64,000 nt of DNA from positions 5,952,001 to 6,016,000 of the forward strand of contig NZ_JAUSUZ010000001.1 in the NCBI RefSeq assembly GCF_030813715.1, in the 5' to 3' direction. The translations under genes and the position numbers were made by a program. The notes under the pieces were generated by a model. The model saw nothing but the letters and a program-made list of their open reading frames with translations. It was not told the origin of the DNA and did not search any database. The stretch comes from Catenuloplanes indicus (GTDB lineage Bacteria; Actinomycetota; Actinomycetes; Mycobacteriales; Micromonosporaceae). Below, in pieces: positions 25,415-31,991 of the stretch (positions are counted from its first letter, which is position 1; each line of letters begins with the position of its first letter).

Positions 25415-26392
25415 TTGATCGCCCGGGCGGAGGCATTCGCGCTGCGGCGGCTGCTGGCGCTGCCGGCACCGGTGCAGCGGTTCATCGGTGGTACGCCGGC
25501 GTCCGGGGACGCGGTCGACTCGACGATCGCGATGCTGCTGCGTGTCCAGCGGTGGCGCGGGCAGGCAGGCCTCTCCGCCGGCACGCCGGAGCGCACCCGT
25601 CGGCGGATCCGGCGGACGGCCGCGCTGATGGGCGGCCGGCCCACCCCGGTCGGCGCGGTGCACACGGTGACCGTGGCCGGCCGGCTGCGCGGCCGGCACT
25701 ACGTACCGTGCGACGGGTCCGATCTGCTCGTGGTCTTCTTCCACGGCGGCGGGTTCGTGGCCGGTGATCTGGACACCCACGACGAGACGTGCCGGCTGTT
25801 GTGCGCGTCCGGCCGGGTGCGCGTGCTGTCCGTCGAATACCGGCTGGCGCCGGAGTTCCCGTTCCCGGCCGCGGTGGAGGACGCGTGCGCGGCCGTGCGG
25901 TGGGCGTTCACCCAGGCGCCGGCGGTGGCGGTGTGCGGGGACAGCGCGGGTGCGAACCTCGCGGCCGTGGCCTGCCAGGCGCTGCGCGGCGGCGAGCGGA
26001 CGCCGGTGGCGCAGGTCCTGTTCTACCCGCTGATCGACCACGTCGGCGCGTGGCCGTCGCGGTCCCGGTTCCGGTCCGGCCTGGTGCTCACCGCGCGCGA
26101 TCTCGAATTCTTCCGCCGCCACTACCTGCCCGGGCCGGTGACGAACGACCCGCGGCACTCGCCGCTGCACGCGCCGGATCTCACCGGTCTGCCGCCCGCG
26201 ATCGTGGTCACCGCCGCGCTGGACCCGCTGCGTGACGAGGGCGAGGCCTACGCGGCCGCGCTGCGGGCCGCGGGTGTGCCGGTGCGCGCGTGGCGGGTGC
26301 CGGGCATGGTGCACGCGTTCGCCAACCTGACCGCGGTCAGCGAGGCGGCCCGGCGGGCCGTGACCGAGACGGCGACGCTGCTACGGGCGTGA
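25415..26392 (+). CDS. Alpha/beta hydrolase, hormone-sensitive-lipase family
   Basis: A 325-residue esterase of the HSL family: oxyanion motif VVFFHGGGFVAGD, nucleophile elbow VCGDSAGANLA, Asp in TAALDPLRDEG and His in GMVHAF. It hydrolyses short or medium acyl esters; natural substrate unknown. The start appears to be TTG at 25415, with GAGGGG 8 nt upstream; the open frame extends far upstream but crosses the TetR promoter and gene. Its end overlaps the converging Hsp70-like gene by 12 nt. Confidence 0.87.
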   Translation: MIARAEAFALRRLLALPAPVQRFIGGTPASGDAVDSTIAMLLRVQRWRGQAGLSAGTPERTRRRIRRTAALMGGRPTPVGAVHTVTVAGRLRGRHYVPCDGSDLLVVFFHGGGFVAGDLDTHDETCRLLCASGRVRVLSVEYRLAPEFPFPAAVEDACAAVRWAFTQAPAVAVCGDSAGANLAAVACQALRGGERTPVAQVLFYPLIDHVGAWPSRSRFRSGLVLTARDLEFFRRHYLPGPVTNDPRHSPLHAPDLTGLPPAIVVTAALDPLRDEGEAYAAALRAAGVPVRAWRVPGMVHAFANLTAVSEAARRAVTETATLLRA

Positions 26393-27733
26393 CAGCGCAA
26401 GCCACTGCTGGCTGGCGACCGCGTCACCGGCCGGGACCAGCAGCCGCTCGACCGTGCCGGGCACCGACGAGGTGAGGTCCCAGACCGCGCCGGACGGGAG
26501 CCGGACCCGGGCCAGCGGCCAGCCCACCGGGTACGTGTCGCCGGGCGAGACGAACCAGCGCAGCAGCTGGCCACCGCCGCCGGGCAGCGTGAAGGACAGC
26601 GGCACGGTACGCGACGAGTCCGCACTGGACGTGATGAGCCGCGGGCCGCTGCGGGTCAGCCAGCGCGCCGCACCCTGCACCGTGGCCAGCTCCGGCTCGT
26701 CCACCCGGCGCAGCGGACGGTTGAACGCCCTGGTCAGCGCCTCGGCCGCGGCCGGCATGCGGGAGCCGCCGCCGACCAGCAGGATCGCGCTGATCGTGTC
26801 CGGGTGGACCTTGTGCCGGGCCAGCAGGTCGGCGCAGCACCTGACCGTGCGCTCCAGCACCGCCTCGGCCAGCAGCGCCAGCTGGGACCGGTCCAGCTCG
26901 TACGCCGGGGTGGTCGGCATCAGGTAGTCCTCGACGCTCTCCACGTCGCTGAGCTGGTGCTTGATCCGCTGGGCGAAGTCGGCCAGCGCCATGCTGAGCC
27001 GCAGGGCCGCGGGCGTGCCGGGCGCGGTGACCACGGACGCGATCAGCGGTGCCAGCCACTCCTCGCCGTCGTTCTGGATCCTGTTGGCCAGCAGCGCGTC
27101 GATGTTCCGGCCGCCGCAGTCGTCGATCGCGTCGTGGCCGAGCACCTCCGGGCCCTCCGCGCCGACTCGCATCAGCGCGGTGTCGAACGTACCGCCGCCC
27201 AGGTCGTAGATCAGGATCAGCTCGCCGGGCAGGAACGTCGGTCCGGGGATCGGCGCGTACGCGGCCGCGACCGGCTCGGGCAGCAGCTCCACCGTGCTGA
27301 ACCCGGCCGCCTCGGCCGCGGCGATCATCTGCGGGCGGCGAATGTCGTCCGGCCCGTAGCTGGCCGGCACCGTGACCAGCGCGCGGGTGATCTGGCCGCC
27401 GTGCATGCGCTCGGCCTCCATCCGCAGCGCGGTCAGCACGGACGCGGCCTGCTCGATCGGCCGGAACGTGCGGTCGCCCTGCGGCATCGGCCGGTCGCCC
27501 TTGAGCCCGCGCTTGAACTCCACGGCGTACGAGTTCGGGTCGGCCCGCTTGCGGCGCTCGGCCAGCGTGCCGACCAGCATGCGCTCGCCGTCCCAGTAGA
27601 CCGCGGACGGCCACGCGTAACCGCCGCTGACCGGCTCCGGCAGCAGACGGATCTGCTCGCCGTCGATCAGCGCCGCGGAGGAGGTCGTGGTGCCGAAGTC
27701 GATGGCCAGCACCGGGCCCATGTCCGGGTTCAC
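26381..27733 (-). CDS. Hsp70-family ATPase with lipoyl-like C-terminal domain
   Basis: A 450-residue protein. Residues 1-365 are an Hsp70/actin-fold ATPase with intact phosphate-1 (AIDFGTTTSS, 10-19), catalytic/connect segment LLPEPVAAAY (150-159), phosphate-2 (DLGGGTFD, 177-184) and adenosine motif (LLVGGGSRMP, 318-327). The normal substrate-binding domain is absent. Residues about 390-448 read GD..-PVGWPLARV... SSVPGTV... LLVPAGDAV...QWLAL, the pattern of a biotinyl/lipoyl-like hybrid barrel, without the modifiable lysine. The GTG at 27733 lies 4 nt past the stop of the upstream Hsp70-like gene, so both form one operon. Client unknown. Confidence 0.85.
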   Translation of the reverse strand: MNPDMGPVLAIDFGTTTSSAALIDGEQIRLLPEPVSGGYAWPSAVYWDGERMLVGTLAERRKRADPNSYAVEFKRGLKGDRPMPQGDRTFRPIEQAASVLTALRMEAERMHGGQITRALVTVPASYGPDDIRRPQMIAAAEAAGFSTVELLPEPVAAAYAPIPGPTFLPGELILIYDLGGGTFDTALMRVGAEGPEVLGHDAIDDCGGRNIDALLANRIQNDGEEWLAPLIASVVTAPGTPAALRLSMALADFAQRIKHQLSDVESVEDYLMPTTPAYELDRSQLALLAEAVLERTVRCCADLLARHKVHPDTISAILLVGGGSRMPAAAEALTRAFNRPLRRVDEPELATVQGAARWLTRSGPRLITSSADSSRTVPLSFTLPGGGGQLLRWFVSPGDTYPVGWPLARVRLPSGAVWDLTSSVPGTVERLLVPAGDAVASQQWLALSRP

Positions 27734-27737
27734 CCGC

Positions 27738-29819
27738 TCACATCTCCCAAGCGTCGACCAGGCTGCGGTCGGCGTAGTCCCAGTTCGCCAGCAGCAGTTT
27801 GCCGTCCGCGGTGAACGACGTCAGCAGCCGTGGCACGAAGCCCTCGGCCTCCGGCGCCGCCGGCGCGTGCACCCGGAACACCTCCAGGCTGCTCTCGATG
27901 TCCTGCAGGCTGAGCACGCCGGAGCCGTCCAGGTCGGAGGTGACCAGCGCGCGCAGCCGGCCGTCCGGGCTGATGCTCTCGGTGCTGAACGCGTCCGTCG
28001 GGCTGCGCATCCGGAAGCCGGGGTTGCGCTGCTCCCACGTCTCGTCGCCGGTCCGCTCCAGCCGTTCGCCGGTGCGCAGGTCCCACAGCGTGGTGACGCC
28101 GCGCCGGTAGCGGCCGACCTGCACCTTGCCGTCCGCCTCCGCGGCCAGCCGCCAGCTCGGCTCGTCGACCAGCACGCGGATTGGGCCGACCGAGTCCCGG
28201 AACCGGGTGGAGAGCTTTCCGGTCTCCACGTCCCAGACCGAGAACGTGCCCTCGGTGTCCCACGCGATCAGGCTGAGCCGGCCCTCCGGGTCGAAGAAGA
28301 TCCGGGCGCCCTGCGCGGTGCCGGCGCCGTAGTCCGGCCGGAACTCGCCGATCAGCTCGCCGGTCGCGATCACGAACGAGCGGATGTGCCGACCGGCGGT
28401 GTCGCACTCCACCAGCACCTGCCGGTCCGGCGTGAGCAGCCAGGAGCCGCTGGTGCGCAATTGCAGGCGCTGCGTCGGCGGGTCGGCGGCCAGCGCCGCC
28501 GCGTCCCGGGTGGCGGCCGTGACCAGCGTGGCGCCGACCTGGCCGCCGGGCGGCACGGTATGGCCGAGCAGCGCGCCCGCGTGCGTGGCGGTCAGCTGGT
28601 AGACGCGCTCGTCGCCGGTGCGCACCTCGGCGACCACGGTGCCCTCGCGGAACGCCTCGCCCTCGCCGACGTTCCAGCGCAGCAGCTTGGCGTCGCCGCC
28701 CGGGATGTCCCAGGAGATCGGCTCGATCCGCCAGCTCGGCGCGTCCGCGGCGACGGCGCGGCTCTCCGCGTTCGCCGCCCACTGCGCGGCGCCGCGGACC
28801 ACGGCCAGCTCCGGCTCGGGCGCGTGTCGCAGCGTGTGGCCGAGACTGCCGGCCAGCGCGGGCTCGACCACCGGGAGCCGGGACGCACCGCCGGTCAGCA
28901 CCACGGTGGAGATGTCCGCCAGCGTGGCGCCGACCGCGCCGACCACCGCGTGCGCGCTGGCCACCAGCGCCTGCACGGCCGGCTCGGCGAAGGCCTCCAG
29001 CCAGGCGCGACTCAACTTGTACGGCGGGGTCAGCGGCGTCAGGTGGTCCTCGACCTCGAGCGAGTCGCCGAGCTGGTGCTTCAGCCGCCGGACGAAGTCG
29101 ATCGCCTCGTAGTAGGCCCGCAGGCCACCGTCACCGGGCGCGGCGAGCAGCGGCTCCAGCCAGGCCCGGCCCTCGGTGCGCAGGTCCTTGATGAGCAGCG
29201 CCTCCAGGTCGTGCCCGGCGGTCGAGCTCTGCGTGGCCAGCAGCGCGGAGTCGTTGCCGGCCACCCGGACCAGCGAGGCCGTCCAGTTCGCGCCCAGGTC
29301 GCAGACCAGGACCAGTGAGCCGGGGCGCAGGTCGGCACCGGTGTGCGGGTCGAGCGCGGCGGCGACCGCGTCCGGTATCAGCTCGACGTCGACGAAGCCG
29401 GCGGCCTCGCCAATCGCGATCATCGCGTCCCGCCGCGGGTCGCCGGGCAGGTAGCCGGCCGGGATGGACAGAGTCAGCCGCCAGACCTGGCCGCCGTAGA
29501 CGCGTTGCGCCTCCCGGCCCAGCTCGGCCAGGTAGGCCGCGACCGCCTCGTTGCCGGTCACCTCACGGTCGTCCAGCCGCATCGCGGCCTGCGCGTCCAC
29601 CGCGCGGCGCGGGCCGTCGATGTAGCGCCGGGGTACGGAACGCTTGCGGCGCTCCGCGGCGGTGCCGACGACGAAGCCGTTGTCGTCCACGCAGACGGCG
29701 GACGGCCAGACGAGGGCGCCGGTCAGCGGCTCCTTGAGCAGCGTCGTCTGGTCGCCGACAATCAACGCCGCCGATGTTCCGGACGTCCCGACATCGACCG
29801 CCAGGATTGGTTCGGTCAT
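27738..29819 (-). CDS. Degenerate Hsp70-like protein fused to lipoyl-like and WD40-like domains
   Basis: A 693-residue protein. Residues 1-355 are an Hsp70-type fold: phosphate-1 AVDVGTSGTS is kept and the adenosine motif LTGGASRLP is kept, but phosphate-2 reads DLGANWTAS instead of DLGGGTFD and the connect Glu is Asp (LIPDAVAAAL), so ATP hydrolysis is doubtful. Residues 378-432 repeat the lipoyl-like pattern of its neighbour (LLRWNVGEGEAFREGTVVAEV, then AGALLGHTVPPGGQV). Residues 455-693 form a WD40-like propeller with SVWDVETGK, TTLWDLRTGE and similar strands. ATG at 29819 follows a G-rich ribosome site. It is the first gene of the pair; the partner keeps a complete ATPase. Confidence 0.82.
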   Translation of the reverse strand: MTEPILAVDVGTSGTSAALIVGDQTTLLKEPLTGALVWPSAVCVDDNGFVVGTAAERRKRSVPRRYIDGPRRAVDAQAAMRLDDREVTGNEAVAAYLAELGREAQRVYGGQVWRLTLSIPAGYLPGDPRRDAMIAIGEAAGFVDVELIPDAVAAALDPHTGADLRPGSLVLVCDLGANWTASLVRVAGNDSALLATQSSTAGHDLEALLIKDLRTEGRAWLEPLLAAPGDGGLRAYYEAIDFVRRLKHQLGDSLEVEDHLTPLTPPYKLSRAWLEAFAEPAVQALVASAHAVVGAVGATLADISTVVLTGGASRLPVVEPALAGSLGHTLRHAPEPELAVVRGAAQWAANAESRAVAADAPSWRIEPISWDIPGGDAKLLRWNVGEGEAFREGTVVAEVRTGDERVYQLTATHAGALLGHTVPPGGQVGATLVTAATRDAAALAADPPTQRLQLRTSGSWLLTPDRQVLVECDTAGRHIRSFVIATGELIGEFRPDYGAGTAQGARIFFDPEGRLSLIAWDTEGTFSVWDVETGKLSTRFRDSVGPIRVLVDEPSWRLAAEADGKVQVGRYRRGVTTLWDLRTGERLERTGDETWEQRNPGFRMRSPTDAFSTESISPDGRLRALVTSDLDGSGVLSLQDIESSLEVFRVHAPAAPEAEGFVPRLLTSFTADGKLLLANWDYADRSLVDAWEM

Positions 29820-29973: not shown

Positions 29974-30576
29974 TCAGTCGAGTAGTTCGAGGATTTCGAC
30001 CAGATTTGTCACTGTTATGTCGCCGGTGATTCCCGCCACGCCGACCACGCGCATGCCGGCCGCGCGCCCCGCGGTCACTCCCGCGGGCGCGTCCTCGACG
30101 ACCAGACAACCCGCCGGCGGTACGCCGAGCCGGTTCGCCGCCAGCAGGTAACCCTCCGGGTCCGGCTTCGGCGCGCTGATGTCGTCCGTGCTGATCAACA
30201 GCGGCGGGTCGATGCCGACCGCACCCAGCCGGGCCCGGGCCAGCCGCTCGTCCGCGCTGGTCACCACGGCCCACGACACGCCTCGGTCGGCGACGCCCTT
30301 GATCAGGTCGAGTGCGCCGTCGATCGCGATCACGTCGGTCAGGTCGTCGTACTCCCACTCCAGCTGCCGCGCCGCCGCCTGCCGGATCCGCTCGGCGCCG
30401 AGCCACGGCGCCACCGACTCCAGCGTGCTCCACGCGGGCCGGCCCGCGTGCACGGCCAGGATCTCGTCCAGCGGCAGGTCGTACTCCTCCGCGATCCGGG
30501 TCCAGCTCCGGATGATCGCCCCGTGCGAGTCGATCAGCGTCCCGTCCATGTCGAAGAGCACCGCACCGATCTTCAT
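29974..30576 (-). CDS. HAD-superfamily phosphatase/phosphomutase
   Basis: A 200-residue HAD subfamily IA protein: motif I DMDGTLIDS with the nucleophile Asp, motif II VVTSADE, motif III lysine in SAPKPDPEGY, and motif IV VVEDAPAGVTAG. The substrate could be a sugar phosphate (2-deoxyglucose-6-phosphatase, beta-phosphoglucomutase-like); specificity cannot be read. It is leftward and ends about 155 nt from the Hsp70 pair start, a gap without clear features, and is divergent from sigK. Confidence 0.88.
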   Translation of the reverse strand: MKIGAVLFDMDGTLIDSHGAIIRSWTRIAEEYDLPLDEILAVHAGRPAWSTLESVAPWLGAERIRQAAARQLEWEYDDLTDVIAIDGALDLIKGVADRGVSWAVVTSADERLARARLGAVGIDPPLLISTDDISAPKPDPEGYLLAANRLGVPPAGCLVVEDAPAGVTAGRAAGMRVVGVAGITGDITVTNLVEILELLD

Positions 30577-30663
30577 GCCGGACAGCCTCGCACCCATCCG
30601 CGCCGCCGCGTGTTCCGAAGCCCCTACTGTGATCGAGCGCGCAGAGAAGGCAAGCTGAGCCGT

Positions 30664-31266
30664 ATGACCGACCATCTGTCCGCGGTGCCGCCGGTACCGC
30701 AGCACGCGGCCGGGCAGGCCGAGCCGGACCGGCTGCTGCGCGCGGTGGCGCGCGGCGACGAGGCCGCGTTCGCCCGCCTGTACGAGCTGGTGTCGCCACG
30801 GGTCTACGGACTGATCCGGCGCGTGCTGCGCGACCCGGCCCAGGCCGAGGAGGTCGCGCAGGAGGCGCTGGTCGAGGTGTGGCGGACGGCCGGGCGGTTC
30901 GACCCGGCCCGCGGCTCCGCCACCGCGTGGGTCTTCACGATCGCGCACCGGCGCGCGGTCGACCGGGTGCGCTCCGAGCAGGCCGGCACCGACCGCGTGC
31001 GCCGGGTCGCCGCGGCCGAGGCGGACGTCCCGTACGACGAGGTGGTCGAGGAGGTCACCAGCCGCCTGGAGCAGCAGCAGGTCCGCCGCTGCCTGGGCAG
31101 CCTGACCGACCTGCAGCGGGAGGCGGTCACGCTCGCGTACTACGGCGGGCACAGTTATCCGGAGGTGGCCCGGCTGCTCGACGCCGGGCTGCCCACCATC
31201 AAGAGCCGCATGCGCGACGGCCTGATCCGGCTGCGCGACTGCCTCGGCGTGGAGGTAGCGCGATGA
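30664..31266 (+). CDS. sigK: ECF RNA polymerase sigma factor, SigK-like
   Basis: A 200-residue ECF sigma factor: region 2 (AFARLYELVSPRVYGLIRRV, DPAQAEEVAQEALVEVWRTA) and region 4 (LTDLQREAVTLAYYGGHSYPEVARLL, TIKSRMRDGLIRLRDCLG). The N-terminal layout and its anti-sigma partner resemble SigK/RskA. Its TGA overlaps the ATG of the anti-sigma gene, so they are co-translated. The regulon is unknown; in mycobacteria SigK controls redox-linked secreted proteins. Confidence 0.88.
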   Translation: MTDHLSAVPPVPQHAAGQAEPDRLLRAVARGDEAAFARLYELVSPRVYGLIRRVLRDPAQAEEVAQEALVEVWRTAGRFDPARGSATAWVFTIAHRRAVDRVRSEQAGTDRVRRVAAAEADVPYDEVVEEVTSRLEQQQVRRCLGSLTDLQREAVTLAYYGGHSYPEVARLLDAGLPTIKSRMRDGLIRLRDCLGVEVAR

Positions 31267-31991
31267 CCATGGACATTCACGCGCTGGTCGGCGCGTACGT
31301 GCTGGACGCGGTGGACGACATCGAGCGCGCTGCGTTCGACCGGCACCTCGGCACCTGCAAGGCCTGCTCGGCCGAGGTGGACGAGCTGCGCGAGGCGACC
31401 GCGCGGCTGGCGGACGCGACCTGGTCGGTGCCGCCGCCCCGGCTGCGCCGCGAGGTGATGCGGCGGATCGCGATCACCCGGCAGACGACGCCGGTCCGGC
31501 CGGCCGCCCGCCGCCGGCCCGCGTGGGGCCGCCGGGTGCTCGCCGCGGCCGCGGCCGTGGCGCTGGCCGCCGGCACCGGCGCGGCCGTCTTCGCCTACCA
31601 GGAACAGCGGGTACGTGAGCAGGCGGTGATCGCGGCGGCGGCGCGGGCCGAGGCGGCGCGCGTGCAGGCGGTGCTGTCCGCGCCGGACGCGCGGCTGCGG
31701 ACCGCGGAAGTGACCGGCGGCGGTCAGGTGACGGTCGTGGTGTCCCGGTCCCTGGACGAGGGCGTCGTGCTGATGGATGGCGCCGCGCCGCCGGAGCCGG
31801 GCCAGGCGTACCAGATGTGGCTGATCACCGGCGCGAATCCGGCACCCGCCCCCGTCATGCCGCCGGGCTCGGGCACGGGCGTGGGTTTCGTCTCCTCGGT
31901 GGGGGACACGGACGTGATCGCGCTGACGATCGAGCCGGCATCCGGCTCCCGGACGCCCACCTCACCGGTCCGCGCACAGGTGAGACTCTAG
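31263..31991 (+). CDS. rskA: RskA-like anti-sigma factor
   Basis: A 242-residue single-pass membrane protein. Cytosolic residues 1-90 carry an anti-sigma domain with an HxxxCxxC-type motif (FDRHLGTCKACSAEV), a membrane helix follows at about 98-117 (VLAAAAAVALAAGTGAAVFAY), and the extracytoplasmic part is an RskA domain with AAPPEPGQAYQMWLI. It holds sigK at the membrane until proteolysis. The start overlaps sigK by 4 nt. The stop codon lies in a CTAG directly beside a long inverted repeat. Confidence 0.88.
   Translation: MTMDIHALVGAYVLDAVDDIERAAFDRHLGTCKACSAEVDELREATARLADATWSVPPPRLRREVMRRIAITRQTTPVRPAARRRPAWGRRVLAAAAAVALAAGTGAAVFAYQEQRVREQAVIAAAARAEAARVQAVLSAPDARLRTAEVTGGGQVTVVVSRSLDEGVVLMDGAAPPEPGQAYQMWLITGANPAPAPVMPPGSGTGVGFVSSVGDTDVIALTIEPASGSRTPTSPVRAQVRL

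Follow-up and report, generated by a model that had tools for sequence, protein, structure and literature searches.

Hsp70 ATPase domains are usually taken as chaperones, and the principle of a non-hydrolysing Hsp70 partner is known from the eukaryotic cytosol. The nearest published observation that we saw is from Kaur et al., who describe proteins with only the nucleotide-binding domain (NBD) of Hsp70 in conflict systems built around GTPases, most of them from actinobacteria and firmicutes (eLife 2020, PMC7159879). In yeast, Ssz1 is an ATP binder that hydrolyses its nucleotide hardly or not at all, the ATPase activity of Sse is marginal, both touch the NBD of an active Hsp70, and Ssz1, which keeps a part resembling the beta portion of the substrate-binding domain (SBD), works with a J-protein at the ribosome (PMC8476630). 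Here we analyse two adjacent genes for Hsp70-type proteins, Long and Short, in a stretch of 64,000 nucleotides from Catenuloplanes indicus (contig NZ_JAUSUZ010000001.1, positions 5,952,001 to 6,016,000; hereafter the window). The pair lies at 5.98 Mb of a 9.25 Mb genome. Its parts are already known; the combination of Hsp70 domain, barrel and propeller and the split pair are apparently undescribed, as no description of either was found in a literature search that covered mostly papers readable without subscription. Judging from the sequences, we see an even chance that the pair is the remnant of a duplicated one-chain protein, with the two copies degenerated in complementary ways and acting as a heteromeric switch.

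Domains and catalytic residues of Long and Short

Long (693 amino acids; 27738..29819) joins an Hsp70-type NBD, a lipoyl-like barrel and a WD40-type propeller, and by its residues is a pseudo-ATPase; Short (450 amino acids; 26381..27733) has the NBD and the barrel, without an SBD. All features of the pair are on the minus strand, and 4 nucleotides (27734..27737) separate the stop codon of Long from the GTG start of Short. The original prediction, made from the window's letters alone, had coordinates, strand, lengths and spacing correct on re-reading. Long and Short share 40% identity across 435 residues, in an alignment that covers most of the barrel. This homology excludes a chance resemblance, and the two genes are found together again and again, in 22 genomes from 8 genera.

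Whole-model structure searches find an Hsp70-type NBD in both proteins (residues 1-349 of Long, 28773..29819, without the catalytic residues; residues 1-360 of Short, 26654..27733, with them retained). The Pfam HSP70 match is confined to this part (profile positions 105-369 and 97-373 of 599 in the two proteins) and the barrel follows where it ends, so the earlier claim that neither protein has an SBD stands. Short carries the motifs DFGTT, EPVAAA, DLGGGTFD (phosphate-2, residues 177-184, 27182..27205) and GGGSRMP. At the matching places Long reads DVGTS, DAVAAA, DLGANWTAS (residues 174-182, 29274..29300, replacing DLGGGTFD) and GGASRLP, which confirms that the ATP motifs are intact in Short and that phosphate-2 is lost in Long.

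Catalytic residues were read from 46 Longs and 22 Shorts, aligned to DnaK of the window's genome; a pair of frameshift fragments from a single genome and two one-chain proteins of genus g44 were not included. Residue numbers follow E. coli DnaK (D8, K70, E171, T199, D201). D8, the phosphate-1 Asp, is retained in 45/45 readable Longs. The K70 position is R in 41/41 (5 gaps), E171 is E in 0 of 45 rows (1 gap), and the catalytic Asp D201 is found in none of the 46, with T, S or A instead. Long has a phosphate-2 loop shortened by one residue. In the alignment as made, T199 corresponds to T in 27 rows, to S in 10, to N in 5 and to A in 4, and many Longs may therefore still have this Thr in place. 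Because D201 and E171 are lost and K70 is changed to R throughout the sampled Longs, Long is, as read from these residues, a long-standing pseudo-ATPase. Across 41 aligned Longs, 49 columns spread over all three domains are invariant, and the Trp within the altered phosphate-2 loop and the GG of the adenosine motif do not vary either. Short keeps D201 in 19 of 22 sequences (exceptions in genera g28, g15 and g38). At loci L075, L082 and L086, Short is missing catalytic residues as well, and both members of the pair look dead.

The dead domain of Long is under purifying selection. For the ATPase domain, four comparisons among paired Longs gave ratios of nonsynonymous to synonymous substitution rates (dN/dS, Nei-Gojobori) of 0.08, 0.14, 0.22 and 0.16; three among Longs without a neighbouring Short (solitary Longs) gave 0.30, 0.31 and 0.29. 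On these few comparisons, constraint on the domain is somewhat weaker in Longs that lack a Short. Over all domains compared, dN/dS ranges from 0.07 to 0.57, the top value coming from one 72-codon barrel comparison.

The barrel (residues 366-437 of Long, 28509..28724; residues 377-450 of Short, 26384..26605) was delimited from model strands, profile search and a count of hairpin residues, together with Pfam for Short. Searched against all PDB sequences, the barrel profile finds mainly biotinyl/lipoyl-fold proteins (best E value 7.7e-6), and 56 of the 60 best listed matches are biotin/lipoyl enzymes or efflux adaptor proteins by molecule name; the other four of the 60 are a CbbQ protein (6l1q_C, E value 0.00018) and, at E values of 0.6 to 1.7, a flippase, a proteasome subunit and a glutamine amidotransferase. 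The excised Short barrel matches Pfam Biotin_lipoyl with an E value of 0.00089 and 19.5 bits, under the cut-off of 22.1. Whole-model structure searches (viral library included) return Hsp70 matches throughout, and because these fill them the searches are neutral on the barrel. On the evidence of the profiles, the barrel is homologous to the biotinyl/lipoyl fold. Lys is found in the barrel hairpin of 0/27 sequences, and this count together with the profile search bears out the predicted lipoyl-like barrel without a modifiable Lys in both proteins. The barrel does end Short, as had been proposed for both; the barrel of Long (about residues 366-437) lies in the middle of the chain, with the propeller at the C-terminus. 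Likewise, the proposed pattern GD-x-V-G-x-LA-V fits Short, and Long reads GEAFREGTVVAEV, for which the literal pattern is looser. Neither disorder nor a truncated Hsp70 beta-sandwich was seen in the C-terminal regions of the predicted structures; the barrel region forms strands (predicted local distance difference test score, pLDDT, mostly 75-92, lower at the edges) and the profile matches are to the lipoyl fold.

The propeller of Long (residues 446-693, 27741..28484) has about five blades, judged from predicted strands. Its profile matches 282 distinct PDB sequences at E values up to 0.1 (best 3.9e-11), and most of the 60 listed matches have names of WD-repeat proteins or designed propellers, with few single stretches passing alone. 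The profile search thus backs the WD40-like propeller that had been predicted for Long.

Distribution of the pair and its one-chain relatives

In a sample of 150 genomes of the family, Long was called at E values up to 4.3e-87, the next genome scoring 3e-30 or weaker, and is found in 46 genomes of 15 genera. Short is directly downstream in 22 genomes of 8 genera and, wherever present (22/22 genomes), is directly behind Long. The co-occurrence, for which a genome-neighbourhood survey had been suggested as a check, therefore holds for Short; Long is alone in 24 of its 46 genomes. Because of these 24 genomes, and because Short has also lost catalytic residues in 3/22 pairs, it is the dead member that has been retained more widely, and it is not an accessory of the live one. 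When the Short profile was run on the 24 Short-less genomes (E value 1e-60, at most 70 candidates scored per genome), 16 genomes gave Long and no other match, and 5 gave no match. G081 had, besides Long, one weaker match that stops short of the barrel; G095 and G121 contain additional strong members. Within the window's genus, Long is missing in 1/5 genomes. Beyond the family, 1 of 396 genomes of the phylum matched Long at an E value of 1e-45, with few candidates scored per genome, and that one is the own genome.

Among 18 pairs that we read, 16 have an in-frame start codon for Short within the end of Long, mostly ATG with a 17- or 8-base overlap, and the two Catenuloplanes pairs among the 18 have gaps of 4 and 3 bases instead; these starts are possible in-frame codons, and the real ones may differ. 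Locus L009 (Catenuloplanes japonicus) shows 93% identity at Long, and G006, a genome labelled as the same genus, also contains the window's stretch. In G006 (L018:23-1495), Short departs from the matching frame past about residue 423 and the end of the barrel is lost, possibly by sequencing error. In G091 (L013:5959-9410), frame changes split both genes of the pair, by decay or assembly error.

Relatives with all three parts in one chain were found as well. A search of 246 genomes of the class with Short gave matches in 17 genomes of one other family, besides the own genome, with 41-44% identity over nearly the full length. The nine that were fetched all carry DLGGGTF or DFGGGTF, match the Short profile through the barrel, and continue after it for 324-336 residues with WD-type repeat motifs (9/9). 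Six checked catalytic residues are all kept in 6/9, and L149, L150 and L152 have Glu for the last phosphate-2 Asp. The window's own family has such relatives in genus g44, where the six residues are kept in 8/8 fetched proteins and the barrel is followed by WD-type repeats in five of them (L107-L111). A one-chain relative with WD repeats, seen by eye, is also encoded at L114, in a genus g31 genome that holds the pair.

In the main tree (57 rows, thinned, with the divergent g38 Short left out), the barrel-bearing proteins form one clade (support 100/100), apart from DnaK and the membrane-type and other Hsp70-like proteins, and Long (100/100) and Short (100/99) each form one clade within the set. 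The 17 solitary Longs of the first tree are one clade (100/97; genera g17, g19 and g42 not placed) and are therefore consistent with a single loss of Short there. The simplest reading of these sequences is a fused, active ATPase-barrel-propeller ancestor, from which Short would have lost the propeller and Long catalysis. Fifteen Hsp70 matches were obtained over the cut-off in the own genome (two proteins matched twice), representing DnaK and twelve other proteins, the pair included; the ten Hsp70-type ATPase proteins that the genome has besides the pair (L096-L105) look like an expansion of their own.

Weighing the proposed switch

If the pair is a divided one-chain protein, the ancestor would have carried an active Hsp70 ATPase domain, a Lys-less lipoyl-like barrel and a WD40 propeller in a single chain that was duplicated. 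Short would have retained the ATPase and dropped the propeller, and Long would have retained a smaller propeller and dropped catalysis. With both proteins probably made from one transcript, Short would cycle with ATP, its ATP/ADP state serving as the switch, and the non-hydrolysing domain of Long would be a docking or exchange partner of Short, as Ssz1 and Sse are on active Hsp70s. The barrel, in place of the Hsp70 SBD, could be a docking module that relays the nucleotide state, and the propeller of Long may hold a client or site. By analogy with Ssz1/Ssb or Sse1/Ssa, the pair would be a heteromeric switch and not a chaperone. Only tentatively do we propose the fuller version, a bacterial Hsp70-type heterodimer that arose by splitting one chain into an engine copy and a pseudo-ATPase sensor copy, with no handling of unfolded peptides and with output through the lipoyl-fold barrel, as a counterpart of Hsp110-Hsp70 and Ssz1-Ssb. 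Since Long persists alone, at least part of its job likely needs no ATPase of this subfamily.

In favour of the switch are the existence of one-chain forms that share a clade with Long and Short, the purifying selection on a domain of Long that has lost its catalytic residues, the position of Short directly behind Long, the co-variation of the two and the yeast precedents. Several points weigh against it. The solitary Longs come from 7 genera, and in 22/24 of their genomes no other barrel-length member of the subfamily was found at an E value of 1e-60 among at most 70 candidates scored in each. In 3/22 pairs the catalytic residues of Short are lost. The co-variation that supports the switch comes from 20 paired genomes, without G091, whose frames are broken, and G038, whose Long is partial: distances of Long and Short correlate at r 0.94 (partial r 0.78 given DnaK distances, with 0/2000 permutations as high). 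Its limits are that it amounts to about seven independent lineages, that the permutations ignore kinship and that kinship is removed in part only. In g28 and g15, where Short has lost catalytic residues, Long also has the longest end branches among the paired rows, which fits joint function or joint relaxation. The sister grouping of Long and Short in the trees (93/91 in the main tree, 96/98 in the first) is not decisive, as three other placements of Short pass approximately unbiased (AU) tests without rejection: next to the g44 relatives (p 0.061), next to those of the other family (p 0.118), and grouped with both sets (p 0.111); an active propeller-bearing ancestor remains the simplest reading under these arrangements. 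The propeller, as read from the sequences, is not tied to the active form: after the barrel, g44 proteins L106:5141-7051 and L113:5011-7023 have another part and membrane segments (by eye), and L112:5081-7285, with its six catalytic residues kept, has no sequence beyond the barrel, as in Short, so there may have been more than one loss of the propeller. Finally, no constant third gene indicates a pathway, none across all genera being seen among the frames listed (reading-frame comparison of 27 loci, rough gene-neighbour comparison of 31 loci).

Long might instead be a self-sufficient, hydrolysis-independent scaffold, with Short an Hsp70-type switch in its own right, cotranscribed with Long in some lineages only. 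We regard this as possible and on balance unlikely: it would account for the 24 of 46 genomes with Long and no Short, and for the purifying selection on the clade of 17 solitary Longs (ATPase-domain dN/dS 0.29-0.31, 3 comparisons), but tree-placed Short-clade proteins are always behind Long (three partial or unfetched matches, from G095 and G121, are outside the trees), the distances of the two proteins co-vary more than DnaK accounts for, and the dead domain is, on few comparisons, somewhat less constrained without Short. A further reading, rather more doubtful, follows the precedent of Ssz1, which binds ATP (PMC8476630). Long would bind nucleotide without splitting it, as an ATP-locked sensor, and Short would be its reader or exchange client. 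The retained phosphate-1 Asp and the invariant adenosine-motif GG and phosphate-2-loop Trp favour nucleotide binding, against which stand the shortened phosphate-2 loop and an adenosine motif that is weak in many Longs (SRLP changed to AYLP or AHLS).

Decay of the operon, with Long an inactive duplicate being lost and the pair without a joint role, seems very improbable: catalysis is indeed lost in all Longs and three Shorts, and both reading frames are broken in G091, but dN/dS is 0.07-0.57 in all domains compared, which disfavours decay, and the invariant columns of Long extend through its three domains in a protein of 15 genera. We give similarly little credence to Short as a true Hsp70 folding chaperone with Long as its co-chaperone. 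The window's Short keeps its catalytic residues and has high structural similarity to DnaK; against this, the SBD is missing with the barrel in its place, and DnaJ and GrpE are not nearby, as had been noted. The DnaJ matches in the genome are at 2.95, 3.25 and 5.04 Mb and the GrpE match at 5.04 Mb, so that all those found are more than 0.9 Mb off; DnaK and GrpE are 0.94 Mb distant from the pair.

Surroundings of the pair and comparison with known systems

The genes around the pair encode a GGDEF-EAL protein, Methyltransf_19, TetR, Abhydrolase_3, a HAD phosphatase, an ECF sigma factor with its anti-sigma factor, a response regulator and a histidine kinase; as far as seen among the frames listed, neighbours appear to vary between genera. 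In ten adjacent frames that were scanned no GTPase was found, and one of them gave no match at all. Upstream of Long, a divergent ECF sigma/anti-sigma gene pair (window 30448-31991) has matching frames at g31 and g28 loci. The upstream HAD-type phosphatase was also considered as common to g31 and g28 and was dropped, since a direct check matched only the own-genus locus L009 and, weakly and farther off, L080. Genus g44 has solitary Longs at L077, L079, L081, L084 and L085. Judged by eye from their motifs, the neighbours resemble tsaB, tsaD and in some cases rimI and tsaE, the tRNA t6A genes. Models of known anti-phage defence (PADLOC-DB) gave 0 families for Long and Short at E values up to 0.01, and a search for plasmid spread gave no plasmid matches at 1e-40.

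The module links an Hsp70 ATPase domain with a barrel and a propeller, and one bacterial family seems to have distributed its parts over two copies, one live and one dead. Because it is found as a pair, as a solitary Long and as a single chain, these versions can be compared, a natural experiment on what a pseudo-ATPase Hsp70 domain does. Its barrel shares with biotinyl/lipoyl domains (Pfam PF00364), which make up most of the best PDB profile matches, the same sequence pattern along both halves; it differs from them in the hairpin without Lys, and the window's Short falls under the Pfam cut-off. Proteins L096-L105 of the same genome likewise have a divergent Hsp70 NBD with a swapped C-terminal part, but those placed in the tree belong to another clade, and in 7/10 the barrel and propeller are replaced, as judged by eye, by a linker and a membrane helix that lead to an outer domain at the C-terminus. 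The GTPase-centred conflict systems also include an actinobacterial Hsp70 domain without a peptide-binding domain (PMC7159879). As described there, they have their own GAP1-N2-type GTPase genes, a full HSP70 and GrpE, whereas the pair has a GTPase in 0/10 neighbouring frames and GrpE at 0.94 Mb. Comparable in principle are Ssz1/Ssb and Sse1 (Hsp110)/Ssa of the yeast cytosol, in which, as would be the case for Long and Short by their residues, a barely or non-hydrolysing Hsp70 homologue stands beside a hydrolysing one (PMC8476630). In the yeast systems the contact is through the NBD; here both proteins carry a lipoyl-like barrel and Long a propeller, and the pairing is drawn from gene adjacency and co-variation. 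If the proposed switch is true, the principle of a non-hydrolysing Hsp70 partner would extend to bacteria.

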